DNA from: Aureimonas sp. AU22
Lineage (GTDB): Bacteria; Pseudomonadota; Alphaproteobacteria; Rhizobiales; Rhizobiaceae
Assembly: GCF_001463745.1 (NCBI RefSeq)
Contig: NZ_BBWJ01000004.1
Span: forward strand, 248,001 to 312,000
Direction of reading: 5' to 3'
DNA: 64,000 nucleotides
The position numbers were made by a program, and so were the translations under genes. The notes under the pieces were generated by a model. The model was not told the DNA's origin, searched no databases, and saw only the letters and a list, made by a program, of their open reading frames with translations. Below, piece by piece: positions 13,455-46,213 of the stretch. The number at the start of each line of letters is the position of its first letter. Position 1 is the stretch's first letter.

Positions 13455-13512
13455 GCTCAGGTTGGACACTGCCCGCAAGGCAGGGCGGCCGTCAAGCGGC
13501 GCTCGCGGGGTT

Positions 13513-19054: not shown

Positions 19055-19086
19055 GGCGGACTCGAGCGTTGGAGGAGGGCGCGCGA

Positions 19087-26841: not shown

Positions 26842-26845
26842 GGGT

Positions 26846-27807: not shown

Positions 27808-28602
27808 TTACGGGCGGCCCCCAGTGCTGGGACCGTCCGCCTCTACGGCTGCGACCAGCTTTTCCACTTCCGCCACGTCCCATTGTACCAGGTCGTCTCT
27901 CGCACCGCGCTTCAAGAGCGATGTGCTGACCACAACGCTGTCGGCAACCTGCAGTGCCTGACGGATATTTTGCGCGGTGACGCTTCCGCCAATCACGATC
28001 GGACGCGAGACGCCGGCATTCCGCGCTGCGGTGACGCGCGCCAGACTGTCTTCGAAGGTCGCGCCCGTGAGGACAAGAGCATCGGCCCCCATGTTCTGTG
28101 CCCAGAGCGCCGCGGCTTCGTGGGGCACAGGCGACAAAGGTTGGCATGTGCGGTCGTGGACGTCCGCGAGAATCTGAATATCCTTGCGTTCCAGCAGCGA
28201 ACGATAGTCGGTCGCCTCGACCGACAACGCTTGTCGCAATCCTTCCGCGTTGACAGCCGCCCCGACGAAGATCTTGAGCCTTACGAAGTCAGCATCTACC
28301 GCATCGGCGATGGCGAGAGGCGCAATGGCGTCATGGGCCTGAACGATGATCCCGAGGTGGATATCCGGAAAGCTGCGCCGGAAGAGACGCCCCAGCACCG
28401 ACATCCGGGCCACGGTTTGCTGCGTCGCGGGCCCCGTCTCCCCTGTCTCGTCCTGAATCTTGATCGCACGGATCCCGCCTTGGATGAACACCTCCGCATT
28501 GGCGAGAAGATAGTCCTCGTACCAGGAGATCGGCATTCGATTTCCGCCTCGGAAGGGGGGAAACTGAAGGGCCGCGATCACAGAAGGCAGAGGTCGAGAC
28601 AT
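27808..28602 (-). CDS. BtpA/SgcQ-family TIM-barrel protein
   Basis: 264 residues from the ATG at 28602. The family is shown by ANAEVFIQGGIRAIKIQDET, a core with FVRLKIFVGAAVNAEG and ILADVHDRTCQPL, and the C-terminal GGSVTAQNIRQALQVADSVV-STSLLKRG, a phosphate-binding barrel end. E. coli SgcQ lies in a sugar operon and BtpA affects photosystem I; the reaction is not established for either. Here it is divergent from a DeoR regulator of a sugar-type cluster, suggesting a role with a phosphorylated sugar or nucleoside-like substrate. Confidence 0.85.
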   Translation of the reverse strand: MSRPLPSVIAALQFPPFRGGNRMPISWYEDYLLANAEVFIQGGIRAIKIQDETGETGPATQQTVARMSVLGRLFRRSFPDIHLGIIVQAHDAIAPLAIADAVDADFVRLKIFVGAAVNAEGLRQALSVEATDYRSLLERKDIQILADVHDRTCQPLSPVPHEAAALWAQNMGADALVLTGATFEDSLARVTAARNAGVSRPIVIGGSVTAQNIRQALQVADSVVVSTSLLKRGARDDLVQWDVAEVEKLVAAVEADGPSTGGRP

Positions 28603-28716
28603 GGTGGCTCGCAAGGATCGATCTTTCGCAAAGGCTGAAAATTCGGCGGCGAAAAGGAGAATCGGCTAGCATAATCGGGAGACCCGACCCGACTTTCCTC
28701 CATTCGGCTTTACCAG

Positions 28717-29490
28717 ATGCCATCTTTGAAAGCTATCGAAAGACACCGTCGCATCATCGACCTGCTTCAGGCGGATGGGCGGGTCGACGTCGAACACCTT
28801 TGCGGAGCGCTGGGCGTATCCTCGGTGACGGTCCGCGCCGATCTCCTGTATCTCGAGAAAGCGCAAGTCCTTCGCCGGATCCGGGGCGGCGCCATCGCCG
28901 TGCGCCCCAGTCGTTACGAACGTCCGATCGATCTCAATGCTTCACTGCACGGCGAGGAGAAGGACGCCATCGCGGCCGTAGCGGCGGAGATGATCCGGGA
29001 CGGCGAAACCGTGATCATCGATACAGGCTCCACCATGGCGGCGCTTGCCACAGCCTTCCCCCGCAGCCTCACCGACGTAGCGGTCGTCACCAACGCCCTG
29101 AACGTTGCGACAGCGCTGGCGAACCATCCCGGGGTCACGGTCATCGTGACGGGCGGGACGGTCCGCCCACAACTCAATTCGCTCGTATCCCCGTTCGGGA
29201 CCCTTCTTCTGGCTGAGATCAATGCCGACGTCGCCTTCATGAGTTGCGCCGGCGTCGAGCCTCGTAAGGGATTCACCAACAGCAACTGGCAGGAGGCGGA
29301 AATCAAGAAGGCGATGATCCAGGCTGCAAGCCGCGTGATCTTTCTTGCCGACCACTCCAAGCTCGGACACGTCGCAACCGCTCGCATCGCGGCGCTGGAG
29401 GAAGCCGACCTTCTCATCACCGACAAAGGCGCCTCCGCCGACACCATTCGAGAACTGAAGGCGTCCGGTCTGGAAGTCGCGATCGCATAA
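28717..29490 (+). CDS. DeoR-family transcriptional regulator
   Basis: 257 residues. The N-terminal winged helix has RHRRIIDLLQADGRVDVEHL and GVSSVTVRADLLYLEKAQVL. The C-terminal DeoRC sensor has VIIDTGSTMAALATAFPRSL and VVTNALNVATALANHPGVTV, the sugar-phosphate-binding isomerase-like fold. It lies between the BtpA-like gene and the first SIS gene and probably represses both directions until a sugar phosphate is bound. TTTCGAAA-type palindromes in the two AT-rich gaps downstream are candidate sites. Confidence 0.93.
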   Translation: MPSLKAIERHRRIIDLLQADGRVDVEHLCGALGVSSVTVRADLLYLEKAQVLRRIRGGAIAVRPSRYERPIDLNASLHGEEKDAIAAVAAEMIRDGETVIIDTGSTMAALATAFPRSLTDVAVVTNALNVATALANHPGVTVIVTGGTVRPQLNSLVSPFGTLLLAEINADVAFMSCAGVEPRKGFTNSNWQEAEIKKAMIQAASRVIFLADHSKLGHVATARIAALEEADLLITDKGASADTIRELKASGLEVAIA

Positions 29491-29508
29491 ATTTTCACAA
29501 TCATCTAA

Positions 29509-29541
29509 ATCGAAAGACATCGAAACCATAATTTTCGAAAA
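29509..29541. promoter_or_regulatory. Candidate DeoR operators before the first SIS gene
   Basis: Two direct copies of ATCGAAA (10-base period, from 29509) are followed by the perfect palindrome TTTTCGAAAA at 29532-29541. The same TTTCGAAAA core recurs at 31739 before the amidohydrolase gene. The stretch is AT-rich against a GC-rich background, as promoter regions here are. Confidence 0.45.
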
Positions 29542-29616
29542 CTTTCCTTGTGCTGGGATAGGCTTCGGTTGGAAAACTTTGACACGACGTTCATTCCGAT
29601 CTCGACGAGCCCAACG

Positions 29617-30705
29617 ATGCCCCTCCCCCAACCCGCCGCCGTCTCCCCGAGCTTCGAGCCGATGCTCGCCGACATCCGCCGCCAACCGCAGGTCTTGGCC
29701 GGCCTCCTTGCCCGCCGCGACGAGATCGCCGCCTTCGCCCAGAACGCATTGACGCCGGATGCGGGCGGGCGTCTCTATGCTTTTGGGAGCGGAGACGGTT
29801 GGTTCGCATCCCGCGCCGCATTCGGAGGCACCGGGGCCAGCGGCGTCAGCGGGCTGGACTTCCTCCTGAACACAGCACCTGCTCTCGGCGCGAGGGACCG
29901 TGCCATCGGGATTTCCATGTCCGGCAACGTCGACCGCACGCTGGAAGCCGCCGAGGCGGCACTTGCTGCCGGCGCTAGTGTTTCGCTGCTCACCAACGGC
30001 ATGGGCGGACGGATCGGCGCACTCGGGCTTGCGCGGTTTTCACTCGACATCCCGGACCTCGCGCCCTTCCTCTGCGGCACGTCGAGCTATGTCGCGACCC
30101 TGGCCGTCCTTGCCATGGCGGCGCAGGGCAATGACTGGGCGGACGAACTGGACGCGCTCGTCGGCGAGTTGCCCCGCTTCATCGAGGAGACGCACGCCCT
30201 GTTCGGTGGCGCCGCTGGCCTTGCGTCATGCAGCGGCGTGCGTTTCCTCGGTGTGGGCACGAGTGTGGCAACCGCCGACTACGGCGCGGCGAAATGTGTG
30301 GAGGTCACCACCGTTCCCGCCTGGAGCGACGATATCGAAGAGTTCGCGCACCGGCAGTACTGGTCGATGAAGCGCGACGAGATCGTCGTTCTCCTTCCCG
30401 TAGATGCCAGATCCGCCGCCTACGCCGATGCAACGGCCGAGGCCCTCAGCCATCTCGACATGCAGGTGGTGGCGATCGAGCCCGCAGATGCTCCCGTTCC
30501 GGAGGCGCGACATCGGATCACCCTGCCCGGCCACCCGCGCCATGCCCCCCTGACCCAGGCTGTCGCACTACAGCTCTTCGCCTACCATCTGGGGATCGCG
30601 AATGGGACCGATCCGAACCGCCGGCTGCACCTCAAGCAGGACGAGACGCGCTTCTCGGTGAGCCGTCGCCTCACGCGCCGCAGCCTGATCGGAACGGGTC
30701 ACTGA
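29617..30705 (+). CDS. SIS-domain sugar isomerase/deglycase-like protein
   Basis: 362 residues from the ATG at 29617. Two SIS domains: the first starts GRLYAFGSGDGWFASRAAF with AIGISMSGNVDRTLEA, the second VRFLGVGTSVATADYGAAKC. Lys226, Glu229 and His245 have the spacing of GlmS Lys485/Glu488/His504 and of FrlB/FraB deglycases. This suggests isomerase, deaminase or deglycase chemistry on a fructosamine-type 6-phosphate. The PfkB kinase gene follows after 16 bases. No clear ribosome site is seen. The exact substrate is not known. Confidence 0.85.
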   Translation: MPLPQPAAVSPSFEPMLADIRRQPQVLAGLLARRDEIAAFAQNALTPDAGGRLYAFGSGDGWFASRAAFGGTGASGVSGLDFLLNTAPALGARDRAIGISMSGNVDRTLEAAEAALAAGASVSLLTNGMGGRIGALGLARFSLDIPDLAPFLCGTSSYVATLAVLAMAAQGNDWADELDALVGELPRFIEETHALFGGAAGLASCSGVRFLGVGTSVATADYGAAKCVEVTTVPAWSDDIEEFAHRQYWSMKRDEIVVLLPVDARSAAYADATAEALSHLDMQVVAIEPADAPVPEARHRITLPGHPRHAPLTQAVALQLFAYHLGIANGTDPNRRLHLKQDETRFSVSRRLTRRSLIGTGH

Positions 30706-30721
30706 CGAGAGAGCAAGCCCG

Positions 30722-31570
30722 ATGGCTCGTCTGGCGGTCGTGGGATACGCATCCATCGATACCATCGTGGTCGAGGGGAAACCACACCGCACGATCGGGG
30801 GCGGCGCCGTTTACGCCGCCCTGTCGGCCGCGCGCTATGGCTCCGAGGTTTCGCTTCACGTGGCCGTCGGCGAGGATTTTCCGACGCACTGGCTCCGGCA
30901 ACTCGAAGCCTTGAACATCGATACGTCATCGGTGGAACGACGCTCGGGCGGCACGCGCCGAGCGCTTCTGCACTACGGCGGGCGGGAGGAGAGGATCGCC
31001 AGCACCGAACGGGACGCGGCTTGGTGGGATCGGACGCGGAGCCTGACGCCGCCCCTGCCTCGGAAGGGTTTCGACGGTTACCTCCTTTGCCCGATGCCGC
31101 CCGAGACCCTGGCAGAATGCCTTTCGCGAGCCTCGGGAGGTTTGTCCGTCGCCGATACGAGCGAGGTCTTCGCTCTCGACGGCGCGAGCCTGAAAAAGGC
31201 ACTAGGACGGTTGGATGTCTTCGCGCCGAGCCTCGAAGAGATCAGGCTTCTGACGGGACGGCACGACGACGAGGAAGCACTGCAGACACTGTCGCACCTC
31301 GTGCCCATCCTCGTCGCCAAACGCGGCCGGGCCGGGCTTACGCGCTTCGCGAAAGGCGAACGACTCGATCACACCATCACCCCTCGGACGGCGATCGATC
31401 CGACCGGGGCGGGCGACGCCACAGTCGGCGCACTCACCACGGCACTGTTGGCGGACTTGTCGCCGGGCCAACAACTGCGCACCGCAGCGCAGGCTGGTGC
31501 GGAAGCCGTCGGCGCGATCGGACCTGGCGCCTTCGGCTGGCAGATCCGGCAGAATTCGAAAGAATTATAG
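30722..31570 (+). CDS. PfkB-family carbohydrate kinase (first copy)
   Basis: 282 residues. The ribokinase fold is shown by IGGGAVYAALSAARYGSEVS near residue 26 and the catalytic DPTGAGDATVGALTTALLA near residue 225, whose second Asp is the base. It lies 16 bases after the SIS gene and probably phosphorylates the sugar that the SIS protein uses, as FrlD/FraD do for FrlB/FraB. The sugar itself cannot be read from sequence. Confidence 0.9.
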   Translation: MARLAVVGYASIDTIVVEGKPHRTIGGGAVYAALSAARYGSEVSLHVAVGEDFPTHWLRQLEALNIDTSSVERRSGGTRRALLHYGGREERIASTERDAAWWDRTRSLTPPLPRKGFDGYLLCPMPPETLAECLSRASGGLSVADTSEVFALDGASLKKALGRLDVFAPSLEEIRLLTGRHDDEEALQTLSHLVPILVAKRGRAGLTRFAKGERLDHTITPRTAIDPTGAGDATVGALTTALLADLSPGQQLRTAAQAGAEAVGAIGPGAFGWQIRQNSKEL

Positions 31571-31837
31571 TTCGCATCAAAAGATGCGCGCCTTCCTGTC
31601 GCACTTCGCCGATCCCCTCCCTCAATGAGCCCGAGCTTCCGAGAAGCCGACATAACGTACTGTTTTATCGCGTTTTTTTGGCGCATCTTTTGCACTGACG
31701 AGGTGGCTGAACGCTTCCAAACCTCGATCTTTCCCGAGTTTCGAAAATTTTCTTTTTTGAAATTTTGAAAATATTTCTTGCGTTGGTTTCTGTGATGCCG
31801 GAAGCTCCCTCGCATAGAAATAAACCACGGGGTCAAC
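31571..31837 (+). promoter_or_regulatory. AT-rich intergenic region with TTTCGAAA/GAAAATTTTC palindromes
   Basis: This 267-base gap is strikingly AT-rich from about 31650. TTTCGAAA (31739-31746) overlaps the perfect palindrome GAAAATTTTC (31743-31752), followed by TTGAAATTTTGAAAATATTT. It probably holds a regulated promoter for the amidohydrolase and transporter genes, with the DeoR protein as likely binder. No gene is seen in it. Confidence 0.45.
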
Positions 31838-33346
31838 GTGCCCAAGAAATTGTCATCTCGATGGATTCTGGCTTTCGACGGGAACGATCATGTTCTCATC
31901 GAGAACGGCTTCGTAGCGATCGAAGGCGACCGGATCATCAAGATCGGCGACGCCCACGCAACCGCGGCGTCTTCCCACGAAGGTTGGGAGCATCGGGACT
32001 ACGGAAATGCACTGATCGCGCCCGGCTTCATCGATTTGAACGCTTTGGCCGATGTGGATACGACCATTTTGGGGTTCGGCGGACAAAGGCCTCCCCTGGC
32101 GTCCATGTGGAGCCGCTCCTACGCGCAATCGGGACGCCGCGAGGTCCTGACGCGCGACCAGCGCCTGATGTCGGCGCGTTTCGCCTTCGGACAATTGCTT
32201 TTGTCCGGCATCACAACCGCTCTTCCCGTGACATCCCTTCTTTTCCGCGCCTGGGCGGAGAGCGTTGCCGAATTCGATGACATTGCCGCACTCGCGGACG
32301 AACTCGGTCTTCGCCTTCTTCTCGGCCCGAGTTATCGATCCGCCGTGAACGTCGCGGAACCCGACGGGCAAGTAGGGCAGTTGGCGGACGAGGAAGCAGG
32401 TCTGGCCGGCTTGCGAGACGCCCTGGACTTCGCGCGGCGCTGCGAAGGCGCCGGACCGCTTGTCTCCCCTCTGCTGGTGCCTTCCACGATCGAGACCTGC
32501 TCCGACGAGCTTCTGCAGCGAACAGCCAGCGCCGCAAAGGATCTCGGCATCCCGTTTCGCCTTCACTGCTGCCAGTCGGCGTTGGAGACACGGTTGATCT
32601 GGCAGCGTTCGAGCCGCAGCTCCATCGGACATCTGGCTGCCTTGGGGGTTCTGGGCAATGCCGCCTTGCTCCCTCACGCTCTCGAACTTGGTGGCCCCCA
32701 GCGCGACCCGAACCTGGTTCTGTCGGACTTCGAGCAACTGGAGACCAGTGGGTCGACAGTGGTGCATTGCCCACTCGTCGTCGGACGCGCGGGACGCAAA
32801 CTGGAGTCCTTCGCCCGTATGCGGGCCAAGGGCATCCGAATCGGCTTGGGGACCGACACCGCTCCCCCTGACATGCTGATGAACCTGCAGATGGGCCTCG
32901 CCATGTCGCGTGTGGAGGACGAGGCGGCGGCGGACATTCCCGAATTCGTACGCGCAGCCACTCTGGCCGGCGCCGAGGCGATCGGACGCCGCGACCTCGG
33001 ACGCCTCGAGCCGGGTGCGCAGGCCGATCTGGCGGTCTGGGATCTGGCTGCCTTCGATGCCCAGCCGGTCTTCGATCCGCTGGAGGCGTTGTTTCTTATG
33101 CCTCCCGGCCGACGTGCGCGAGACGTGTTCGTTGCAGGACGTTGCTGCGTGAAGGATCATGAACTGCAGGCGTTCGACGTGGCCCATGCAAGCGAGCGCA
33201 TCGCCGAGATTTTCCAGATCCTCCTCGACAGCTTTCCCGAGCGCCACTGGCAGAACCGCCACTGGCGCGAGCTCTTCCCCCCCTCCTTTCCGATCCAGCC
33301 GGCGTCGGCTTTGGGTGGAAGGGACAGCAAAGGCGACATGCGATGA
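31838..33346 (+). CDS. Amidohydrolase-superfamily protein lacking the metal-binding HxH
   Basis: 502 residues from a GTG at 31838. Overall like ATZ/TRZ-type deaminases: IENGFVAIEGDRIIKIGDA, then APGFIDLNALAD, RLHCCQSALE, LLPHALELGG and GLGTDTAPPDM-MNLQMGLA. The HxH motif expected after PGFID is Asn67-Ala-Leu69, and the HxxE motif is H243-C-C-Q246. Only H243, H280 and D340 remain. It may be non-catalytic, use a different metal arrangement, or have a regulatory role. The ATG of the transporter binding protein overlaps its stop. Compare the intact paralogue at 42152. Confidence 0.85.
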   Translation: MPKKLSSRWILAFDGNDHVLIENGFVAIEGDRIIKIGDAHATAASSHEGWEHRDYGNALIAPGFIDLNALADVDTTILGFGGQRPPLASMWSRSYAQSGRREVLTRDQRLMSARFAFGQLLLSGITTALPVTSLLFRAWAESVAEFDDIAALADELGLRLLLGPSYRSAVNVAEPDGQVGQLADEEAGLAGLRDALDFARRCEGAGPLVSPLLVPSTIETCSDELLQRTASAAKDLGIPFRLHCCQSALETRLIWQRSSRSSIGHLAALGVLGNAALLPHALELGGPQRDPNLVLSDFEQLETSGSTVVHCPLVVGRAGRKLESFARMRAKGIRIGLGTDTAPPDMLMNLQMGLAMSRVEDEAAADIPEFVRAATLAGAEAIGRRDLGRLEPGAQADLAVWDLAAFDAQPVFDPLEALFLMPPGRRARDVFVAGRCCVKDHELQAFDVAHASERIAEIFQILLDSFPERHWQNRHWRELFPPSFPIQPASALGGRDSKGDMR

Positions 33347-34869
33347 AGATCCTTCACAGCAGTTGGACACGACGGCTGGTCCTGTCCGCCGGCCTTGCCG
33401 CCGGTTTGATGACGAGTTCGGCTTTGCCCGTCCTTGCGCAGAACACCGCACCGGTCGTGATCGCATCGTCCGAGGACGTGATCAGCCTCGATCCGCACAT
33501 GCTCGATTCCAACAATCCCACGGGGTCGGTGATCTGGTCGATCTTCGACAGCCTGGTGCGGCGCGCGCCGGATGGGTCCCCGGTACCGCGCCTGGCCACG
33601 TCCTGGGAGCGACTGGACGACGTGACATGGCGCTTCAAGCTGCGTGAAGGGGTCAAATTCACCAACGGTGAGGTCTTCGACGCGCAGGCGGTGAAGATCA
33701 ACTTCGACCGGATGAACACGGCCCCGTTCAACACGCTTCAGCAGCTCTACGCCCAGACCGGATTGAAGGAGGTCAAGGTCGTCGACGAGCATACGATCGA
33801 CCTCGTCACGGAGGCGCCCACGGTCAACATGCTCTATTGGCTGGCCGAAGCCTTCATCGCGGCCCCGAAGTACATCACCGACACCTCGCCGGACGAAGTC
33901 GCACTGAAGCCCGTCGGCTCCGGTCCCTACAAGCTCGGCTCCTGGCAACGCGGCGATCGCCTGACGCTCGTAGCCAACGAAGGCTATTGGGGCGAGGCAC
34001 CGAGCGCCAAGGAAGTGGTGTTCCGTGCGATCCCGGAAATGTCCTCGCGCGTCAACGAACTGCGTGCCGGGACGGTGGATCTGGCGATCGGCATCACGCC
34101 GGACGTGGCGGACCAACTGAACTCCGACGTCAGCGACGCCGTGATGAACGAAGGCCTTCGCAAGATGCACATGGGCATCTCGCTGAACGGCGAGCAGCCG
34201 GCACTCAAGGAGGTCAAGGTCCGTCAGGCGCTGAACCATGCCGTGGACGTGCCGACCATCATCGAGGCTCTTCTGAACAACACGACGGCGCCCTTGAAGA
34301 GCATCGTCAACCCACCCAACAACAATCCTGACCTGAAGCCGTTCGCCTACGACCCGGAACGCGCCAAGCAACTCTTGACGGAAGCGGGTTTCGGCGAAGG
34401 TTTCCCGCTTACGATCCAGTATTCGACCCGATTTGCCGGTGGCAAGGAGGTCTCGGAGGTCGTGGCGTCCTATCTGGAGCCGCTGGGAATCCGGTCGACC
34501 ATCGAGGCGGTGGAACTCGGGCAATTCCGGCAGCAGCTCTCGTCCGCCAGCCTGAAGGGCATCTACTTCCAAGGCTGGGCGGCGCTGATCAATCCGTCGG
34601 TCGAGCTGGTGATCCTCACCTGTGGCCACGTCGACAACTCGAGCGGCTACTGCAACCCGGACTACGACAAACTGGTCCAGGAAGCGTCGCAGACGCTCGA
34701 CGACGCAAAGCGCAAGGACCTAGAGTTCCAAGCTCAGTCGATCGTCTGGAACGACGCGCCGTGGCTCTACCTGTGGCGCCTGCCGAACGTCTTCGGCCTG
34801 TCCAAGCGCGTCGCCTACGACTTCCGAGCCGACAACTATCTCGAGCCTTACCTGATCACGGTCAAGTAA
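33343..34869 (+). CDS. Opp/Dpp-type ABC transporter substrate-binding protein (SBP_bac_5)
   Basis: 508 residues. An export signal (SSWTRRLVLSAGLAAGLMTS, cleavage near LPVLAQ) is followed by the cluster-5 fold: ISLDPHMLDSNNPTGSVIWS, PRLATSWERLDDVTWRFKLR, EGVKFTNGEVFDAQAVKINF. Such proteins bind peptides, nickel, opines, glycosides or other mid-size ligands. The ligand here should be the compound broken down by the surrounding SIS, PfkB and amidohydrolase genes. The start overlaps the preceding stop as ATGA; the first permease follows after 74 bases. Confidence 0.93.
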   Translation: MKILHSSWTRRLVLSAGLAAGLMTSSALPVLAQNTAPVVIASSEDVISLDPHMLDSNNPTGSVIWSIFDSLVRRAPDGSPVPRLATSWERLDDVTWRFKLREGVKFTNGEVFDAQAVKINFDRMNTAPFNTLQQLYAQTGLKEVKVVDEHTIDLVTEAPTVNMLYWLAEAFIAAPKYITDTSPDEVALKPVGSGPYKLGSWQRGDRLTLVANEGYWGEAPSAKEVVFRAIPEMSSRVNELRAGTVDLAIGITPDVADQLNSDVSDAVMNEGLRKMHMGISLNGEQPALKEVKVRQALNHAVDVPTIIEALLNNTTAPLKSIVNPPNNNPDLKPFAYDPERAKQLLTEAGFGEGFPLTIQYSTRFAGGKEVSEVVASYLEPLGIRSTIEAVELGQFRQQLSSASLKGIYFQGWAALINPSVELVILTCGHVDNSSGYCNPDYDKLVQEASQTLDDAKRKDLEFQAQSIVWNDAPWLYLWRLPNVFGLSKRVAYDFRADNYLEPYLITVK

Positions 34870-34943
34870 CCAGCCGGCTCGGCCGATAGCGGCGTCCGGT
34901 TTCCGGGCCGGACGCTTCCCGCCCGTCATCTCCGCGGATCCTC

Positions 34944-35861
34944 ATGTCCCGATTTCTCGTCAAACGCCTCCTGATGGCCGTTCTGGTGCTGATCGGCGTT
35001 TCGTTCAGCACCTTCATCGTCGGCCACCTGACGGGCGACCCCGTGGCGCTGCTGGTGCCGGAGAACGCTTCACAGGAGGCCAAGGATGAGCTGCGTCGCC
35101 ATCTCGGCCTCGACCAGCCGATCCTGGTTCAGTATGGCGTCTTCCTGGGTCGTGCCCTATCGGGCGATCTTGGCTTCTCCTATGTCCAGGGCACGCGCGT
35201 CGCGGGGCTGATCCTGGAACGGCTGCCTGCCACCTTGGAACTGGCCGTGGCTGGTTTCCTTCTGTCGCTCCTGATCGCCATTCCGCTCGGCATCGTCATC
35301 GCCTTGAAGCGCAACACCGCCTGGGACTTCGTGGTGACGGCTCTCGCCATGGTGGGCCAGTCGGCGCCCGGTTTCTGGATCGGGCTGATGCTGATCGCCG
35401 TGTTCGCCGTCGAGCTACGCCTCCTGCCCGTGTCCGGCTATGGCGGCTTCGCCTATCTCATTCTGCCCGCCGTCACGCTTGCGCTCCAGTCGGCCGCACG
35501 GCTGACCCGGCTCGTGCGGGCCAGCATGCTGGAAGTGCTGAGCGCCGACTACGTGCGCACCGCCCGTTCCAAGGGCCTGCGTGAGCGCGTGGTCCTTTGG
35601 ATCCACAGTTTCCGCAATGCGATGATCCCCGTCGTCACGATGGCGGGACTGGAATTTGCCGAGCTCGTGTCGGGCGCCTTCATCACCGAAACCATCTTCG
35701 CTTGGCCGGGCGTCGGACGCCTCGCGGTCACCGCCGTCTACCAGCGCGACTTTCCCTTGGTTCAAGGCGTCGTGCTGTTTGCCGCTTTCGCCTTCGTCTT
35801 CATCAACTTTCTGGTCGACCTGCTCTATGTCGCGATCGACCCACGCGTGAAGCTCGCATGA
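34944..35861 (+). CDS. Opp/Dpp-type ABC transporter permease (DppB-like)
   Basis: 305 residues, about six membrane helices. LVKRLLMAVLVLIGVSFSTF begins the first, and the EAA-like coupling loop is YVRTARSKGLRERVVLWIHS with FRNAMIPVVTMAGLEFAEL. SGAFITETIFAWPGVGRL is the family C-terminal motif. It pairs with the DppC-like permease whose ATG overlaps its stop (ATGA). Confidence 0.94.
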   Translation: MSRFLVKRLLMAVLVLIGVSFSTFIVGHLTGDPVALLVPENASQEAKDELRRHLGLDQPILVQYGVFLGRALSGDLGFSYVQGTRVAGLILERLPATLELAVAGFLLSLLIAIPLGIVIALKRNTAWDFVVTALAMVGQSAPGFWIGLMLIAVFAVELRLLPVSGYGGFAYLILPAVTLALQSAARLTRLVRASMLEVLSADYVRTARSKGLRERVVLWIHSFRNAMIPVVTMAGLEFAELVSGAFITETIFAWPGVGRLAVTAVYQRDFPLVQGVVLFAAFAFVFINFLVDLLYVAIDPRVKLA

Positions 35862-38720: not shown

Positions 38721-38761
38721 CCGCTCCTCATCCCTTGCATCCCTTCAGGAGACCCAATTCC

Positions 38762-39940
38762 ATGTCCGCCCATTCCGACCTCGCCCAGTCGTTTCCGCCG
38801 CATGCCGAGGAGATCGAAACGGCTATGCGCACCGCGCTGCGCTACGATGTTCTGTGCGCCGAGGTCGACCGGACGGTTGCGGAAGCGCTGACCGTCCCCA
38901 CGATCGCCAACGCCCGCCGTTTGTTTCTGGCAGGATCGGGCGACAGCTACTTCGCTGCTCTTTCGGCCGCTCCAGCCCTCAGCCGTTGGACCGGACTGCC
39001 GGTCATGGCGACCACCGCCATGGACCTCGCTCGCTACCAGATCCCCTTGATGCAGGAAGGGGACGTGGTTGTCAGCATCTCCAACTCTGGATCCTCGTCG
39101 CGCGCTCGCGAATGCGTCGCGCTCGCCAAATCCAAGGGACTACCGACACTGGGGGTCACCGGGACACTTGAAGGCGCGCTCGCAAAGAGCGCCGACGCCG
39201 TGATCCACCGCCCCGTGGGCGATATCGCCGACATTCCTGAACAATACGGGCGCTGCTTCCTGAACTTTGCTGAATACGTGGCGGTTCTGCAGGCGCTCTA
39301 TGTCTTCGGCATCGAGCTCGGCCGGATGCGCGGTCATCTGCGCGCGGACGACGCCGATCGGCTGGGTGCGGACCTTGCCGCATCGGTCGCCATGCTTCCC
39401 GACGTGGCGCGAGGGATCGACGCGACCGCCCGACGCGTAGCCGAAGCCGTTCTGGGGGTCGACACCGTCTTCTCGATCGGGACCGGACCGAGTCGCGGAA
39501 CGGCTGCCTATTCGGCTGCGAAGTTCCACGAGCAGATGCCCATCAACGGCGTTCACCAGGATCTCGAGGAATGGGCGCATCTCGAGTACTTCCTGACCTA
39601 CTTCTCCTGGCGTGAGCGGTCCGTCGCCTTCGTCATCGCGCCTCCCGGCAACAGCGCGGACCGCGCCCACGAGATCGTCGAGGGCATGGCCGGCGCCGGC
39701 GGGCGGGCTCTTCTCGTAGCGCCGGCCTCGGCTCGAACGGAGGGTGCCTTTGCCCATTTCGAGATGCCCGAGGCGCTGGACGAGTTCCTGTCCCCGATGG
39801 TCTACCATCTGCCGGCGCAGCTTCTCGTCCTCTACATGGCGCATCTGTCGGGGATCCGGTCGATCCCGCTCCGACGCACGGACGGTTTTCGCCTAATCGC
39901 GGGGAGCCAGATCCGCGACGACGCTTCGACGTTGGCTTGA
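38762..39940 (+). CDS. SIS-domain sugar isomerase/deglycase-like protein (second copy)
   Basis: 392 residues from the ATG at 38762 with CAGGAG upstream. The first SIS domain has RRLFLAGSGDSYFAALSAAP and VVVSISNSGSSSRARECVAL, closely like GlmS and AgaS-type proteins. The second has VDTVFSIGTGPSRGTAAYSA. Lys254, Glu257 and His273 keep the spacing of GlmS Lys485/Glu488/His504. It is only distantly similar to the copy at 29617. It is followed directly by a second PfkB gene, so the SIS-kinase pairing is repeated. Confidence 0.87.
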   Translation: MSAHSDLAQSFPPHAEEIETAMRTALRYDVLCAEVDRTVAEALTVPTIANARRLFLAGSGDSYFAALSAAPALSRWTGLPVMATTAMDLARYQIPLMQEGDVVVSISNSGSSSRARECVALAKSKGLPTLGVTGTLEGALAKSADAVIHRPVGDIADIPEQYGRCFLNFAEYVAVLQALYVFGIELGRMRGHLRADDADRLGADLAASVAMLPDVARGIDATARRVAEAVLGVDTVFSIGTGPSRGTAAYSAAKFHEQMPINGVHQDLEEWAHLEYFLTYFSWRERSVAFVIAPPGNSADRAHEIVEGMAGAGGRALLVAPASARTEGAFAHFEMPEALDEFLSPMVYHLPAQLLVLYMAHLSGIRSIPLRRTDGFRLIAGSQIRDDASTLA

Positions 39941-39948
39941 GCCCGTTC

Positions 39949-40905
39949 ATGGCATCCAAACCCGATCTTCTGATCCTCGGCCAGATCACAATCGATCATG
40001 TGGTTCCGGCGACGCCGGAGCCATGGAAAGAGCAGGTCGGCGGAAACGCCCTCTACGCAGCGGCCGGTGCGCGCCTCTGGCTTGATCCGGCTCGTATCGG
40101 CCTCGTGTTCCGCCGGGGGCATGACTTTCCCATCGACGTCGAAGCCGTCCTGGCCCGAGCCGGAATCCGCCATGTCCGGCGCCTCGACGTGGACCTGCCG
40201 CATCTCACCGAGTGGATCGTCTACGAGACGAACGGATTTCGCAGGTGCCTGCCCAAGAACGAACCGCTCCGCCACATCGGCTCGGAAGGCGAAGGCGCCG
40301 ACATCGAGACTTATCTGGACTACCTCCTGCGCTTCACGCCGGAGGCGGCCGACCTGCCCGCCGAATGGCTTCCCGCCAAGGCGGTCCACCTCGCCCCGCA
40401 AGTGCGCGACCGGCATCCCAGAAGCTTGGCCTTCCTCGCTGGTCGGGCCGAGTTCCTGTCCGTCGACCCCTCCCCGTTCCTTGCCAAGATGCACGACGCA
40501 CGAGGGCTCGCGAACGCCCTGAAGGGAGCGGACGCCATTCTTCCGAGCGAGCTGGAAAGCGGTCATCTGGCAAAGGATGGCTGGTTCGAAGCAGCCGACG
40601 CGCTCCGCTCCGCTGGCTTTGCCGAAGTCGCGATCAAGAGGGGCGCAGACAGCGTCGTTCTTGCCGCGGCGCGCGAGAGGGTCTCGAATATCCCCGTCAC
40701 GCCTGTCGACGTGCTCGATCCCACGGGAGCAGGCGACAGTTTCGGCGGTGCCTATGCCGCCTGCCGGATGCTTGGCTACGCACCGCCCGACGCCGTGCGA
40801 AGAGCCATTGTTTCGGCGGGCATGGTGGTCGGCTCGCGCGGCGCAGAAGCCGCGCTCGCTCTCGATCCGGCCGAGGCGGCTCGTCGTCTTGCGACGTCAG
40901 CTTGA
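39949..40905 (+). CDS. PfkB-family carbohydrate kinase (second copy)
   Basis: 318 residues from the ATG at 39949; a TTG at 39937 overlapping the SIS stop (TTGA) is an equal alternative. Ribokinase motifs are EQVGGNALYAAAGARLWLDP and DPTGAGDSFGGAYAACRMLG. It probably forms the sugar phosphate consumed by the SIS protein upstream. Its last nine bases overlap the end of the convergent solute-binding-like gene. Confidence 0.9.
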   Translation: MASKPDLLILGQITIDHVVPATPEPWKEQVGGNALYAAAGARLWLDPARIGLVFRRGHDFPIDVEAVLARAGIRHVRRLDVDLPHLTEWIVYETNGFRRCLPKNEPLRHIGSEGEGADIETYLDYLLRFTPEAADLPAEWLPAKAVHLAPQVRDRHPRSLAFLAGRAEFLSVDPSPFLAKMHDARGLANALKGADAILPSELESGHLAKDGWFEAADALRSAGFAEVAIKRGADSVVLAAARERVSNIPVTPVDVLDPTGAGDSFGGAYAACRMLGYAPPDAVRRAIVSAGMVVGSRGAEAALALDPAEAARRLATSA

Positions 40906-42153
40906 GGGCACCCAGTGAGCCCGGCAGGCGTTCCACAGCATCAGGATGGCTTCTGCCGTGCGCGCTGGATCCGCAAACCGCTCGCGCAGGGCGTCTCGCA
41001 GGATTCGGTCCGCGCCCGCCGACCACTCCAGCATGAACGGAACGTGGCTGACCGGCGAGACGACCGCCCGGCGACGCCCATCCAGCAGCCGCCTGACGGC
41101 CTCGTCCGCTCCGATCGGGGGAAAGAAGCGCAAAAGCTCGTCGCGGACGACCTCGTCGCGCTCGAGTTCGGGGAACGGCACCGGAAACAGCCGTTCCTGC
41201 AACCAACGCCGGTGGACGCGCAGGTCGCCGTCGACTGCTGGTCCGCCGAGCGCCACGGCCAGTCGCAGCGCCTTGTCGCGGCGGATCCTATCAAGGCCGG
41301 CGCGCACGCAGATCAGCGCATGACCGGGCATCAGAGGCGTTCCGGTGCGTCCTGGAAGACGCGCCAAGGGAACGCTCACGGGACGCCCCGCCAAGACGCC
41401 GGCATCCGCTGCCAGGTAGTCCATGGTGAAGGTGAGAAGGTGGCGACCGGAGGCCCATCGCCGCAGCGCCGCCTCGTCGCTCCGGTCATCAAGACTGCCC
41501 GGGGGCACGAGATCTTCCGCGACGAGGCTCGCGAAGAAGTCGACGGCTTCTGCCAGAGCCACGAGCGCTCGTTCATCGTCCAGAGACGTGACCCCACCCG
41601 TCGACAGATGACACAGCAGGCTCCAGATCAAACCGGTCTGTGTGGCGTGCCAGCGTGGCACGAACGGATGGTCCGAGACACCGTCCCGACGCGCCCGGCG
41701 ACAGACGTCGATTACGTCGTCCCAGTCCTGAACCGAGTGGTCAGCACCGGGTCGCTGAAAGAGCGCGAACGGACCGGCATTGTAGTAGGTCGTCCCCAGG
41801 AGCCGGCCGTCCGGATCGAGAGAGCCGCGAAGGACTTTCCGGTTCATACGGTGCAGCCATGGTTCGATGGCGGGATCGCACGCCGGTATCGGCTCGATCC
41901 AGCCGCACGCTGCCCAAAGCGAGGCTTCGGCGCGTTGCGCATAGAAGACTTCCGGCCCCGCGCCGCACCGGAAGGCTGCGGCGAGAACCTCTTCGTACGC
42001 GCCCGGTATGCAGTCCGCCTCCACCGCCGTGCCGGTTTCACGCGCGTACCGAGCGAGATTGTCCCGCACGATCCCGGCACCGACATCCCAAAACGCGAAG
42101 CGAAGCGGATCACTTCCTTCCTCGATCCCCGGTTCCAAAGGAACGTTGCCCAT
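40897..42153 (-). CDS. Solute-binding-protein-like gene without signal peptide, antisense within the cluster
   Basis: 418 residues. The sequence resembles family 1 extracellular sugar-binding proteins (LRFAFWDVGAGIVRDNLARY, then GAYEEVLAAAFRCGAGPEVF, TTYYNAGPFALFQRPGADHS), but the N-terminus MGNVPLEPGIEEGSDP has no signal sequence, so it should stay in the cytosol unless the true start differs. Its ATG at 42153-42151 has AGGAG eight bases upstream and shares CATG with the start of the rightward amidohydrolase. It is the only leftward gene in a rightward run. A ligand-sensing or moonlighting role is possible but unproven. Confidence 0.75.
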   Translation of the reverse strand: MGNVPLEPGIEEGSDPLRFAFWDVGAGIVRDNLARYARETGTAVEADCIPGAYEEVLAAAFRCGAGPEVFYAQRAEASLWAACGWIEPIPACDPAIEPWLHRMNRKVLRGSLDPDGRLLGTTYYNAGPFALFQRPGADHSVQDWDDVIDVCRRARRDGVSDHPFVPRWHATQTGLIWSLLCHLSTGGVTSLDDERALVALAEAVDFFASLVAEDLVPPGSLDDRSDEAALRRWASGRHLLTFTMDYLAADAGVLAGRPVSVPLARLPGRTGTPLMPGHALICVRAGLDRIRRDKALRLAVALGGPAVDGDLRVHRRWLQERLFPVPFPELERDEVVRDELLRFFPPIGADEAVRRLLDGRRRAVVSPVSHVPFMLEWSAGADRILRDALRERFADPARTAEAILMLWNACRAHWVPSS

Positions 42154-43648
42154 GACTGATCTCCTGGTGCGGGGCGGCAAGGTGCTGCGCTCGGCGCAAA
42201 GCGACATTCCGGAGGAAGCCGATATCCTGATTCGCGATGGCGTCATCGTGGAAATCGGATCCGACCTCGCAGCGGATGCGATGGATGTCCTGGACGCAAC
42301 GGGACAGTTGGTGATCCCGGGTCTCGTCAACGCTCATCTCCATTCGCCGGGCAACCTGATGCGCGGCACTCTCGACGGGCTCCCCCTCGAAGTGTTCATG
42401 CTGTACGAAGTACCCCTCCTGTCGGACGGGGCCGAAGATCCAGACATCGTTCGGCTGCGCACCTTGATGGGCGCAGCGGAGATGCTGAAGCTCGGGATCA
42501 CCAGCGTCGCCGACGACGCCTTCTTCGTTCCGCTCACCAGCTGTGCGGCGATCGACGCGATTGCCCAAGCCTATGCCGACAGCGGCATGCGCGCCACGAT
42601 CGGCCTCGATCAGCCCATCGTCGTAGAATACGACAAGTATCCATTCCTCAAGGATCTTCTGCCGCCGGAACTGCGCGCGCGCATGGACTCGCTGCCGCGC
42701 GAGACGGCAGAGGGCATGCTTGCCCACTACGACTACCTGATCGAGCGCTGGCACGGTGCGGCCGACGGGCGGATCGCCGCGGCCGTCTCCTGTTCGGCGC
42801 CCCAGCGCGCGACGCCGGACTACTTGAGGGCCCTTTCGGCCCTGGCCCGCCGGCACGATCTCCCATTCTTCTGCCATATCTTGGAAACCAAGCTGCAACG
42901 CGTCCTGGGCGAAGAGAAATACGGTGGATCGCTCGTGCGATACGTCGATGAACTCGGCATCCTCGACGAGCACATGCAGGTGATCCATGCGATCTGGGTG
43001 GACGACGACGACATCTCGCGCCTCGGGCGTTCGGGCGCCTGCGTGGCGCACAATCCCGTCTGCAATATGCGGCTCGGCAGCGGAGTGATGCCCTTCCGCG
43101 CCTTGCGCGATGCGGGCGTTCCGATCTGCCTTGGCACGGACGAGGCTGTCAGCGACGACAGCCACAATCTCTGGGGTGCTATCAAGACGGCCGGGATCAT
43201 GCATGCCTTGGCCGATCCGGATCCGTCCCGATGGCCGAAGGCGCCCGAAATCCTGGCTGCGGTCTGGGACGGGGGCAGTCGCGTGCTGCGCCGCCGACAG
43301 CCGCTCGGACGGATCGCCGAGGGTTACGCCGCAGATCTTGCGGTTCTCGACCTCGACACGCCGAGTTACTGGCCGCTGCACGACATTCGGCGTCAGCTCG
43401 TGCTGTGCGAAAGCGGTTCCTCCGTGCGCCATACCGTGGTGGCGGGCCATGTCGTCATGCGCGACCGGCGATTGACGACGATCGATGAGCCAGCCCTTCT
43501 GACTGAGATCCGCGCACTGGAGCCGACCCTGCGACGTGAGGCTGTGGCCCTGCGGGAAAGCGCTGGCGAGGTCGAGCCCTACTACCGGGAAATGGTTCGC
43601 ATGGCAGCGGCCCGCGATGTCGGCTTCACGCGGTGGGTCGGGAGATGA
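42152..43648 (+). CDS. ATZ/TRZ-type amidohydrolase (heterocycle deaminase-like)
   Basis: 498 residues from the ATG at 42152 with AAAGGA nine bases upstream. All metal ligands are present: H62-L-H64 after VIPGLVN, H242 and E245 in CHILE, H279, and D330 in CLGTDEAVSDD. The family (TrzA, AtzB, SAH/guanine deaminases) hydrolyses C-N bonds on heterocyclic rings. It is intact, unlike the paralogue at 31838. The PuuE-like gene starts inside its stop (ATGA). Substrate is probably an amino or amide heterocycle freed from the imported compound. Confidence 0.9.
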   Translation: MTDLLVRGGKVLRSAQSDIPEEADILIRDGVIVEIGSDLAADAMDVLDATGQLVIPGLVNAHLHSPGNLMRGTLDGLPLEVFMLYEVPLLSDGAEDPDIVRLRTLMGAAEMLKLGITSVADDAFFVPLTSCAAIDAIAQAYADSGMRATIGLDQPIVVEYDKYPFLKDLLPPELRARMDSLPRETAEGMLAHYDYLIERWHGAADGRIAAAVSCSAPQRATPDYLRALSALARRHDLPFFCHILETKLQRVLGEEKYGGSLVRYVDELGILDEHMQVIHAIWVDDDDISRLGRSGACVAHNPVCNMRLGSGVMPFRALRDAGVPICLGTDEAVSDDSHNLWGAIKTAGIMHALADPDPSRWPKAPEILAAVWDGGSRVLRRRQPLGRIAEGYAADLAVLDLDTPSYWPLHDIRRQLVLCESGSSVRHTVVAGHVVMRDRRLTTIDEPALLTEIRALEPTLRREAVALRESAGEVEPYYREMVRMAAARDVGFTRWVGR

Positions 43649-44547
43649 CGGGCCTACCTGACGACGGTCGAGACTTTCTCGGTTACGGAGAACACCCACC
43701 ACGCGCCGTCTGGCCGGAAGGCGCACGCGTCGCCGTGTCGCTCGTCCTCAATATCGAGGAAGGGGCGGAAATGGCTTTGTCTTCGGGCGACGAGCGCAAC
43801 GAGGCCACCTACGAAGTGCAGGAGGAACTGGTCGGCTTTCGTGACTTCTGCATGGAAAGCCATTTCGAATACGGCAGCCGCGCCGGCTACTGGCGTGTCA
43901 TGCGCGTGCTGGAAGAGTTCGCGGCTCCGGCCACGCTGAATCTGTGCGCCAGGGCGCTCACGCGTACGCCTTGGCTCGGACGCAACGCCGTCGAGCGTGG
44001 GCACGAGATCATGTGCCATGGCTGGCGGTGGGAGCATCACAACGCGATGAGCGAGACGCAGGAGCGCGAACTGATCGCGCGCTGCGTCTCGACGATCGAG
44101 GCGGAGTGCGGCGTCAGGCCGGTAGGCTGGCACGTGAAGAGCCACCCGTCGGCCAACACGCGGCGCCTCCTGATCGAGGAAGGCGGCTTCCTCTACGATT
44201 CGAACGTCTACAACGACGACCTGCCGTGGACGCTGCGCGGCACGGAGCGCCCCTACGTCCTCCTGCCCTACGCGTTCGACACCAACGACATGAACTTCTT
44301 CGCCTCGCGCCGCTTCGTGCATGGCAACGACTTCTCCCGTTACTGTTGCGACGCCTACGACTGGCTGCACGAGGAAGGCGCGGACCGTCCGAAGATGATG
44401 ACGGTCGGTCTTCACACCCGCATCATCGGCCGTCCCGGCCGGATCGCCGGTCTGCGCGATTTCCTGCGCCATGTGCGTGACAAGGGCGGCGGCTGGATCG
44501 CGCGGCGCGATGCGATCGCCCGTACCTGGATCGCCTCCAACGCCTGA
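43645..44547 (+). CDS. PuuE-like polysaccharide-deacetylase-fold hydrolase (allantoinase type)
   Basis: 300 residues. The N-terminus FLGYGEHPPRAVWPEGARVA then SLVLNIEEGAEMALSSGDER is the PuuE allantoinase signature (GYG-x-x-PP...WP-x-GAR...N-x-EEG-x-E...GD). NodB-fold motifs follow: GHEIMCHGWRWEHHNAM and HVKSHPSANTRRLLIEEGGF. PuuE opens the hydantoin ring of allantoin without a metal. Clustering with a hydantoin/allantoin-racemase-like gene supports a cyclic ureide or amide substrate; allantoin itself is not established. Confidence 0.88.
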   Translation: MTGLPDDGRDFLGYGEHPPRAVWPEGARVAVSLVLNIEEGAEMALSSGDERNEATYEVQEELVGFRDFCMESHFEYGSRAGYWRVMRVLEEFAAPATLNLCARALTRTPWLGRNAVERGHEIMCHGWRWEHHNAMSETQERELIARCVSTIEAECGVRPVGWHVKSHPSANTRRLLIEEGGFLYDSNVYNDDLPWTLRGTERPYVLLPYAFDTNDMNFFASRRFVHGNDFSRYCCDAYDWLHEEGADRPKMMTVGLHTRIIGRPGRIAGLRDFLRHVRDKGGGWIARRDAIARTWIASNA

Positions 44548-44569
44548 CCTCCGTCCGAAGGGAACCGCT

Positions 44570-45316
44570 TTGCGCATCCATATCATCAACCCCAACACGA
44601 CGGCCGCCTTCACGCATGCCGATCTTGCTGCCGGGCAGGCCAGCGCGTCCGCCGGTGTCGTGGTGACCGCCAGCGAGCCGCCCGAGGGGACCCCCTCGGT
44701 CGAGAGCCACTTCGAGGAGGCCGTGGCGGCCCTTGGCGTCATCTCGGAAATCCGCCGGCTCGAGGGCGAACCGATCGACGCCTTCGTGATCGCCTGCTTC
44801 GGCGACACGGGCTTGGCGCCCGCCCGGGAGGTGGCACGTGTTCCCGTTGTCGGTATGACCGAAGCCGCGCTGATGGCTGCCGCACTTGTTGCCGACACGT
44901 TCTCCATCGTCACGCTCCCGGCTCGAACCCGCATCCATTCCCACCGGGTCGTACGGTCTCTTGGCCTGGATCTGGCGGGTCGCTGCCTGCCGATCCGTGC
45001 GGTGGACGTGCCGGTGTTGTTCGACGAAAGCGAGGAAGACGCGGTCCTGAAGGCGATCCTCGCCGAGGGACGGGCCGCGATCGACACGGACGCCGCCGAA
45101 GCGATCGTCCTCGGCTGCGCCGGGATCGGCCATCTGGCGCGCCCGATCGAGACCGAGCTTGGCGTGCCGGTGATCGACGGCGTGTCCGTGGCGGTCGGCA
45201 TGGCGGAGACCCTCGTTCGCTGTCGCCTCACGACGTCGAAGCGTTCGAGCTACGCCGATCCGCCGGCCAAGACCCTCTCCGGATCCTTTCGATCCATTGC
45301 CCGATCCATCTCCTGA
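44570..45316 (+). CDS. Asp/Glu/hydantoin racemase family protein (allantoin/hydantoin racemase-like)
   Basis: 248 residues from a TTG at 44570 preceded by AAGGGA. The start RIHIINPNTTAAFT, then EGTPSVESHFEEAVAA, and the two catalytic cysteine regions VIACFGDTGLAPAREV and IVLGCAGIGHLARPIE, are those of hydantoin/allantoin racemases. The enzyme would interconvert R and S forms of a five-membered cyclic ureide. Flanking deacetylase-fold hydrolases fit such a pathway. The last 30 residues (SKRSSYADPPAKTLSG) extend beyond the usual end. Confidence 0.88.
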   Translation: MRIHIINPNTTAAFTHADLAAGQASASAGVVVTASEPPEGTPSVESHFEEAVAALGVISEIRRLEGEPIDAFVIACFGDTGLAPAREVARVPVVGMTEAALMAAALVADTFSIVTLPARTRIHSHRVVRSLGLDLAGRCLPIRAVDVPVLFDESEEDAVLKAILAEGRAAIDTDAAEAIVLGCAGIGHLARPIETELGVPVIDGVSVAVGMAETLVRCRLTTSKRSSYADPPAKTLSGSFRSIARSIS

Positions 45317-45331
45317 TCCCAAGGAATCCTC

Positions 45332-46213
45332 ATGCTTCCCAGGCAGTCCCGCTACGGCTTCTCGCCCATCACGCGCCGCCCGGACTATGAATGGCCCGGC
45401 GGCAAACGTCTGGCGCTCTACGTCGCGTTGGGAATCGAGGAGTATGTCTTCGGCGAGGGGATCACCGAGGACCTGTTCCCCGGCGCGCCGAAACCCGATT
45501 ACGTGAACACGTCCTGGCGGGACTACGGCAACCGAGTGGGCGGCTTCCGCCTGATCAAGCGTTTCGCCGATTTCGGCGTACCGCTGACCATCCTCCTCAA
45601 CACGGAAGTCTACGACCATGCACCCGACCTGATGGACTTCGCGCGCCGGCACGGCTGCGAGATCGTCGGTCATGGCCTTACCAACTCCGACACGCTCGCC
45701 GGGCGGGCGCCGGCAGACGAAGCGGCCTATCTGAAGGCGGTGGCCGATCGCATCGAGGAAGTCGAAGGCGGCCGTCCCGGCGGCTGGTCGAGCCCCTGGC
45801 TCTCACAGACCGAGAACACAGCCGATCTTCTGAAAAAGACCGGCTACCGCTACCTGATGGACTTGCGGCTCGACGACCAGCCGGTCTGGCTCCAGACGCG
45901 AGCCGGCCCGCTGTTGGCTTTGCCCTACGCTCTGGAACTCAACGATTCTTCCACCCTGATCGGTCGCCAGGGTGACGCCACCGACTTCGAGCGGATGATC
46001 GTGGATGAGTTCGACGAGATGCTCGAGGCTTCGAAAGACCAACCTCTCGTCATGTCCGTCGTGGTCCACTCCTTCATTTCCGGCGCCCCTTTCCGCCTGC
46101 GCGCCCTGACCCGCGCCCTCGAGCATATCACCAGGCGGCGGGACGAGGTGTGGATCACCCAACCGCGCGAGATTGCCGCCTTCATGGAGGCGAACCCTCA
46201 CCTTGCCGTCTGA
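45332..46213 (+). CDS. Second PuuE-like polysaccharide-deacetylase-fold hydrolase
   Basis: 293 residues with AAGGAA before the ATG. The start RYGFSPITRRPDYEWPGGKR then LALYVALGIEEYVFGEG parallels PuuE but is more divergent; NodB motifs are HGCEIVGHGLTNSDTLAG and GGWSSPWLSQTENTADLLKK. It is last in the rightward catabolic run, 15 bases after the racemase gene. It probably hydrolyses a related amide or the second of two stereoisomers; the substrate is unknown. Confidence 0.86.
   Translation: MLPRQSRYGFSPITRRPDYEWPGGKRLALYVALGIEEYVFGEGITEDLFPGAPKPDYVNTSWRDYGNRVGGFRLIKRFADFGVPLTILLNTEVYDHAPDLMDFARRHGCEIVGHGLTNSDTLAGRAPADEAAYLKAVADRIEEVEGGRPGGWSSPWLSQTENTADLLKKTGYRYLMDLRLDDQPVWLQTRAGPLLALPYALELNDSSTLIGRQGDATDFERMIVDEFDEMLEASKDQPLVMSVVVHSFISGAPFRLRALTRALEHITRRRDEVWITQPREIAAFMEANPHLAV

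Follow-up and report, generated by a model that had tools for sequence, protein, structure and literature searches.

FrlB/FrlD and FraB/FraD, which act on fructoselysine and fructose-asparagine, each combine a PfkB-type kinase with a SIS deglycase, and passages of PMC9609667 describe this kinase-deglycase logic for Amadori compounds. A block of 17 genes in Aureimonas sp. AU22 (positions 27808-46213 of the 64,000 nt analysed, hereafter the window) resembles these systems in its PfkB-type kinases and in two SIS proteins whose Glu/His pairs stand 16 residues apart, as do Glu233 and His249 of FrlB. It differs in having two SIS-PfkB pairs, a BtpA protein and ring hydrolases. The block may work like the kinase-deglycase pathways, and by the curated models, which it fails, it is not a member of the FrlB/FrlD family. 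Purine and ureide degradation offers a second comparison: PuuE allantoinase and allantoin racemase were among the best solved relatives of the island's first PuuE-like hydrolase (PuuE1) and racemase, but PuuE1 and the second such hydrolase, PuuE2, both scored below the cut-off of the PuuE allantoinase model TIGR03212 (Table 1), and the genome has a separate purine locus. In the sgc operon of E. coli, SgcQ of the BtpA family occurs with a DeoR-type regulator, as in the island, but that operon is based on a phosphotransferase system and lacks the SIS-PfkB-PuuE set. PsuK of the pseudouridine pathway is a PfkB-type kinase. In the PsuK/PsuG pathway the kinase acts before base release (abstract of PMC9247573), as proposed for the island, whereas Pfam scans of the island proteins returned no PsuG-type family. 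A keyword search found no published description of this gene combination among the matches listed, a result that does not by itself show its absence from all literature.

A sequence-only reading had described the block as importing a sugar conjugated to a cyclic amide or ureide, or an opine such as the chrysopine type, then phosphorylating and cleaving it and opening the ring. We consider it moderately likely that the block forms one catabolic pathway for a sugar conjugate of a cyclic guanidine- or ureide-like N heterocycle, either nucleoside-like or in its Amadori form, and we infer the reactions, their order and the role of BtpA as follows. DeoR would repress the block until an inducer appears, and the Opp-type ATP-binding cassette (ABC) importer would take up the conjugate. 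The PfkB kinases would phosphorylate the terminal hydroxyl of the sugar. The SIS proteins would then cleave the C1-N bond of the sugar in the manner of FrlB and FraB, perhaps after BtpA had turned the N-glycoside into its 1-amino-ketose form. The freed heterocycle would be deaminated by the amidohydrolase AH2 to a hydantoin-like ring, the racemase would equilibrate the ring stereocentre and PuuE1 and PuuE2 would open the ring.

Recurrence and linkage of the sugar and ring parts

The 17-gene block was found with the same order and strands in four bacteria, the window and three other alphaproteobacterial genomes: an Aurantimonadaceae metagenome-assembled genome (MAG), Kandeliimicrobium roseum and Pseudoruegeria sp. 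SK021. The islands in these three syntenic genomes are labelled L007, L008 and L009 (also G727, G728 and G729). Proteins from DeoR to PuuE2 were 47-89% identical among the syntenic islands, and BtpA held the same position with 61-70% identity. The gene set is not a product of chance, since its full order and strand pattern are kept in three other genomes. A rearranged set occurred in a Rhodospirillales MAG (G669, the same genome as G730 and counted once), with the racemase, AH2, PuuE2, PuuE1 and PfkB2-SIS2-SIS1 within about 15 kb.

Single-protein searches, own genome included, found SIS1 in 4 of 347 genomes of the order (E 1e-20) and SIS2 in 3 of 385 genomes of the class (E 1e-30); a SIS2 search over one genome per species gave four relatives. 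The genome samples of order, class and phylum overlap. A SIS1 profile matched 19 of the 385 genomes of the class, five of them above 400 bits; the 14 below this value were dropped, 12 of which had frames of 603-664 residues, the size of GlmS. In the phylum, 13 of 398 genomes matched, and only the window's own genome exceeded 400 bits; the other 12 (frames of 603-881 residues) were dropped. The broader SIS2 profile matched 326 of 342 genomes of the order, nearly all at the level of GlmS. After removal of 310 genomes below 200 bits, 16 SIS2-type genomes remained, which include the congeners G106/G070, G183/G159, G021/G067 and G278/G293.

Eleven SIS1 loci were known (the window, L007, L008, L009, G669, G590, G106, G070, G021, G467 and G473), and an amidohydrolase (AH) or PuuE gene lay within 20 kb of SIS1 at ten of them. 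The eleventh, G590, has its SIS genes on an 18.4-kb contig and AH2, PuuE1 and PuuE2 on a different one. For each of the 16 SIS2-type genomes the neighbourhood was read over 10.9 to 64 kb; these stretches contained PfkB in 16 genomes, BtpA in 13, and at least one of PuuE, AH and AtzD in 12. PuuE matched within 15 kb of a SIS locus in 10 of 19 genomes (8 of 14 genera), where chance would give 0.56 genomes. The 19 all have such a SIS locus and do not include the window or the three syntenic genomes; the expectation was derived from the PuuE matches per genome under a model of random placement and independent genomes. The resulting probability of about 2e-11 is indicative only, the 15-kb limit having been set after the loci were seen. 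Two of the ten linked cases were weak, namely G473, where the match was 30% identical at a distance of 14.9 kb, and G159, where a PuuE2-type gene was 26% identical. The sequence-only reading had assumed one joint pathway and had named as a test whether the SIS-PfkB and ring-hydrolase parts always occur apart. By the PuuE count they do not, and the SIS-PfkB part co-locates with amidohydrolase, PuuE and racemase genes well above random and in several arrangements, which supports the joint pathway.

Among these arrangements, a single stretch in each of G334, G278 and G307 combines a PfkB-SIS-BtpA-BMP importer module with PuuE1, an AtzD-type ring-opening amidohydrolase and another SIS-PfkB pair. 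G183 and G067 hold DeoR, SIS, PfkB, BtpA, two or three PuuE, a Pot-type binding protein and AH3 (our name for a third amidohydrolase type, first met in G021). G159 has DeoR, SIS, PfkB, BtpA, AH3, a weak racemase match (44 bits), a Pot-type binding protein, PuuE2 and AH2. Two SIS-PfkB pairs recur among the loci, and the importer type varies. The comparison defines a recurring module of SIS-PfkB, mostly with BtpA, joined by PuuE, amidohydrolase or AtzD genes and by changing importers. A third SIS-PfkB pair was seen in G278 (L147, 92001-110000, at about 6.6-9.9 kb), beside a nucleoside hydrolase-like gene (37% identity).

Some of the counts weigh against a single pathway. Four of the 16 SIS2-type loci (G291, G231 at a contig end, G085 and G293) had no clear ring hydrolase in the stretch read, the candidate in G293 being only a 27% dihydropyrimidinase-like match. 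No PuuE lay within 15 kb of SIS in nine of the 19 genomes. Relatives of AH2 and PuuE2 were also met in the absence of any annotated SIS gene. A pathway for glycated amines and an independent one for ureides might merely travel together, and plasmid records are in keeping with this: relatives were found in 464 records for PuuE2 and 40 for AH2, against one for SIS1 and five for SIS2. The closest AH2 in G106 (59%) is likewise at a separate locus. Such fellow travelling is nevertheless quite improbable, because the linkage is found in loci of several arrangements and with various importers, and because the promoters of SIS1 and AH1 have a motif in common. For PfkB2, no plasmid record matched at 1e-10.

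Catalytic motifs of the SIS proteins and ring enzymes

In the alignment, E252/H268 of SIS1 and E257/H273 of SIS2 coincided with E233/H249 of E. coli FrlB. His was present in nine of nine SIS1 rows, Glu in seven and both in seven, and all 11 SIS2-type rows had both residues. The partial SIS1 pieces L048 and L049 and the duplicate L050 were left out of this alignment, which also does not contain SIS1 of G467 and G473. We take Glu214 of FraB to be the equivalent of the FrlB-aligned Glu of the SIS proteins. FraB E214A is catalytically inactive, as stated in passages of PMC12755824; FraB residues were also looked for in PMC12051030 and not found there. SIS1 and SIS2 may be sugar-phosphate deglycases, the motif by itself being no proof. 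PfkB1 and PfkB2 both have a PfkB domain with the GAGD motif and belong to that kinase family.

A deglycase role is opposed by several results. GlmS has a Glu/His pair of like spacing, so the pair does not single out deglycases. In two Rhodospirillales genomes, G590 (L044) and G669 (L043), SIS1 has Lys in place of the Glu. At E 1e-3 neither SIS1 nor SIS2 matched the FrlB model NF008481 (cut-off 430 bits; FrlB control 812 bits), and with the FrlD model NF007321 (cut-off 247 bits; FrlD control 513 bits) PfkB1 reached 28.3 bits and PfkB2 gave no match. SIS2 was nearest to GFAT/GlmS isomerase domains in sequence and also in fold (AlphaFold2 model, predicted local distance difference test (pLDDT) 78), and the 50 listed fold matches included no deglycase label. 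This likeness would suit ordinary nucleoside-type salvage, in which a nucleosidase-like step frees the sugar, PfkB phosphorylates it, the part of the SIS proteins is limited to isomerising or deaminating the sugar phosphate, and AH2, PuuE and the racemase handle the base. The occurrence of relatives with BMP importers and nucleoside hydrolases also agrees with salvage. However, no nucleosidase or phosphorylase family appeared in the Pfam scans of the island proteins, and the Glu/His pair aligns with that of the deglycase FrlB, though GlmS shares it. Salvage of this kind therefore seems rather unlikely.

Two side observations concern the SIS genes. In G590 and G669 the adjacent SIS2 keeps the Glu that SIS1 has replaced by Lys, and SIS1 of these genomes is perhaps a non-catalytic partner. 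Elsewhere in the own genome (L102, contig 32, 85001-105000) another SIS gene lies at 13309-14325, with weak FrlD-like kinase matches and, by eye, a LacI-type regulator.

AH2 keeps HxH, two His, Asp and HxxE, the motif set of TRZ/ATZ-type metal-dependent deaminases. HxH, the two His and Asp are the metal ligands of such enzymes. Relatives of AH2 in the PDB include 3lnp, 3hpa and 7ww2 (8-oxoguanine deaminase / hydroxydechloroatrazine ethylaminohydrolase) and triazine hydrolases. AH1 lacks the HxH ligands of such deaminases: NAL or DAL replaces HxH in nine of nine AH1-type rows, and the Glu of HxxE is Gln in all nine. Decay of AH1 was considered and rejected, the loss of HxH being common to the whole family. 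PRK06151-type relatives of AH1 on four plasmids read adjoin ABC importers, of oligopeptide type where annotated so.

The PDB relatives of PuuE1 were 1z7a and PuuE allantoinase 3cl6, and that of PuuE2 was PuuE 3cl6 (E 3.8e-24). The racemase was closest to 3qvj (putative hydantoin racemase, E 7.6e-53) and 5lfd (allantoin racemase) and falls in the Asp/Glu/hydantoin racemase family. The PuuE-like and hydantoin/allantoin-racemase-like identities first assigned from the letters were thus borne out. The separate purine locus of the own genome holds 5-hydroxyisourate hydrolase (HIUase) and a PuuE-OHCU decarboxylase fusion, with xanthine dehydrogenase genes recognised by eye, so that the ring enzymes of the island are additional paralogues. 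On contig 25 of the same genome (L062) an AtzD-type ring-opening amidohydrolase (214-1308) lies near a racemase paralogue and near genes recognised by eye as importer genes.

Importers, gene neighbours and the likely substrate

The importer class differed by locus, being of Opp type in the island and of Pot or BMP type elsewhere, although an Opp-type set was also nearby in G106, G070 and G473. The Opp importer can therefore not be kept as an intrinsic part of the system, as had been supposed. PDB relatives of its solute-binding protein (SBP) include peptide, nickel, heme and agrocinopine binders and leave the ligand undecided. BMP-family importers carry nucleosides. Such an importer adjoins SIS-PfkB-BtpA on a Mesorhizobium huakuii plasmid, stands beside PfkB-SIS-BtpA in 5 of the 16 SIS2-type genomes and lies 3 kb downstream of SIS1-SIS2-PfkB2 in G590. 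On pSymA of Sinorhizobium meliloti, a nucleoside hydrolase next to a BMP importer adjoins a relative of AH2. In G590 AH2 has a nucleoside hydrolase at a distance of about 4 kb and, beyond that, a BMP importer; the AH2 stretch also contains genes for cyanuric acid amidohydrolase and allantoate amidohydrolase, each scoring above its model cut-off. Because relatives sit with BMP importers, nucleoside hydrolases and ring-opening amidohydrolases, the substrate is probably nucleoside-like, and on gene neighbourhood this is favoured over an opine.

If the block took up and used an opine, a glycated amino acid or a lactam, for example of chrysopine type, it could draw on the kinase-deglycase logic established for Amadori compounds in passages of PMC9609667, and agrocinopine-binding proteins are among the relatives of the SBP. 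A deaminase, a racemase and two allantoinase-like enzymes would not be expected for an opine, however, and relatives have nucleoside-type importers. An opine-like substrate is thus most improbable. The santhopine passages of PMC8262997 name no SIS or kinase. What remains of the sequence-only reading is a joint pathway that would import, phosphorylate and cleave a sugar-heterocycle conjugate and open its ring, in line with the linkage and the deglycase Glu/His pair; its opine or chrysopine substrate was not supported, in view of the BMP importers and nucleoside hydrolases at relatives.

On a plasmid of Streptosporangium sp. NBC_01495 (L033, 8974-10948), BtpA and SIS lie side by side near genes for FolE, QueE and 6-carboxytetrahydropterin synthase, a neighbourhood of 7-deazaguanine-type biosynthesis suggesting that the pair may have a biosynthetic role. 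If the block served to degrade or detoxify a nucleoside-type antibiotic, or oxidised purine nucleosides whose hydantoin bases have a labile stereocentre, instead of using a common nutrient, this neighbourhood would fit, and the racemase and allantoinase-like enzymes would suit a hydantoin base. Yet the dedicated importers and the catabolic gene set look nutritional, and just one such biosynthetic neighbour was seen; this role is accordingly judged unlikely.

For the preferred pathway of a nucleoside-like conjugate, a wider idea can be put forward tentatively, as possible if doubtful. The module may be a further nucleoside-cleaving route, in which a PfkB kinase, an Amadori-type rearrangement by the orphan BtpA and C-N cleavage by a double-SIS lyase would replace nucleoside hydrolases and phosphorylases, coupled to ring opening and served by three interchangeable classes of ABC importer. 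The PDB sequence search with BtpA gave only one weak match (E 0.26), and its fold predicted from the single sequence (pLDDT 48) lends the proposed isomerase role no structural support. A scan of viral contigs found no BtpA relatives. The orphan BtpA/SgcQ family gains a testable metabolic setting, and SIS deglycase chemistry may serve heterocyclic conjugates beyond glycated amino acids. Knowing what a single soluble binding protein binds would make the pathway directly testable.

Gene content, regulation and flanks

According to open reading frame (ORF) and family scans, all 17 genes have open frames (Table 1). Every part named in the sequence-only reading was present, and its gene list was incomplete, missing the conserved minus-strand gene between PfkB2 and AH2. 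Orthologues of this gene, 47-56% identical, occurred in three of three syntenic islands. In four of four islands its product opens with the binding-protein domain itself, inspection by eye showing no signal peptide ahead of it, and is therefore probably cytoplasmic. The plus-strand ORF at 40915-42159 was rejected as a gene; it had no family match, and the conserved gene is on the opposite strand. A further correction to that reading is that the left-edge gene is BtpA, on the minus strand, with DeoR divergent from it. DeoR was 71-87% identical across the three syntenic islands.

Table 1. Genes and candidate operators of the block (window positions), with the supporting matches.
Feature	Position	Strand	Evidence
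BtpA/SgcQ family protein	27808..28614	-	Pfam BtpA 94 bits; NCBIfam TIGR00259 96.8 bits, under cut-off 153.4
DeoR-family regulator	28717..29490	+	Pfam DeoRC 175.6 bits, HTH_DeoR
Candidate DeoR operator TTTCGAAA before SIS1	29533..29540	.	Exact copy in window
SIS1, SIS-domain protein with FrlB-like Glu252/His268	29548..30705	+	Pfam SIS 51 bits; catalytic alignment
PfkB1, PfkB-family kinase	30722..31570	+	Pfam PfkB 88.9 bits; GAGD motif kept
Second candidate DeoR operator TTTCGAAA before AH1	31739..31746	.	Exact copy in window
AH1, PRK06151-type amidohydrolase without HxH	31838..33346	+	NCBIfam NF004801 523 bits, over cut-off 416
Opp/Dpp-type solute-binding protein (SBP)	33343..34869	+	Pfam SBP_bac_5 260 bits
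Opp-type permease B	34944..35861	+	Family scans
Opp-type permease C	35858..36715	+	Family scans of longer ORF from 35597
Opp-type ATPase D	36712..37716	+	Family scans of longer ORF from 36607
Opp-type ATPase F	37713..38720	+	Family scans of longer ORF from 37608
SIS2, double-SIS protein with FrlB-like Glu257/His273	38762..39940	+	Pfam SIS 79.7 bits
PfkB2, PfkB-family kinase	39937..40905	+	Pfam PfkB 56.5 bits; GAGD motif
SBP_bac_1-like protein without signal peptide	40897..42153	-	Pfam SBP_bac_1 21.2 bits, under cut-off 26
AH2, deaminase-like amidohydrolase	42152..43648	+	Pfam Amidohydro_1 140 bits; HxH, HxxE, Asp motifs
PuuE1, allantoinase-like polysaccharide-deacetylase-family hydrolase	43633..44547	+	TIGR03212 307.8 bits, under cut-off 424.6
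Allantoin/hydantoin racemase-like protein, start codon estimated	about 44570..45316	+	Pfam Asp_Glu_race 154 bits
PuuE2, second, divergent PuuE-like hydrolase	45332..46213	+	TIGR03212 113.5 bits, under cut-off

The motif TTTCGAAA had two exact copies in the 64-kb window, against 0.37 expected. It was present before SIS1 in four of four islands, with one mismatch in L007; before AH1 it was exact in the window and L008, degenerate in L009 and not seen in L007. The shared motif suggests a common control of SIS1 and AH1 by DeoR. Against this, 6 of 100 shuffles had at least two copies, with no other 8-mer serving as a control, and the exact sequence also turned up within SIS2 in L007 and beyond the island in L008.

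A tRNA-Ser gene lies just left of BtpA. A repeat of the tRNA end, looked for in the remainder of the window as a sign of mobility, reached 12 bases at most. A methionine sulfoxide reductase gene was seen near the tRNA-Ser (26170-27543), and the two are also close in several relatives of the family, so that the island may sit at a tRNA site. Further left, the GC-rich positions 18001-22000 stood out from the remaining sequence of the window by a marked AT skew (0.17-0.19).

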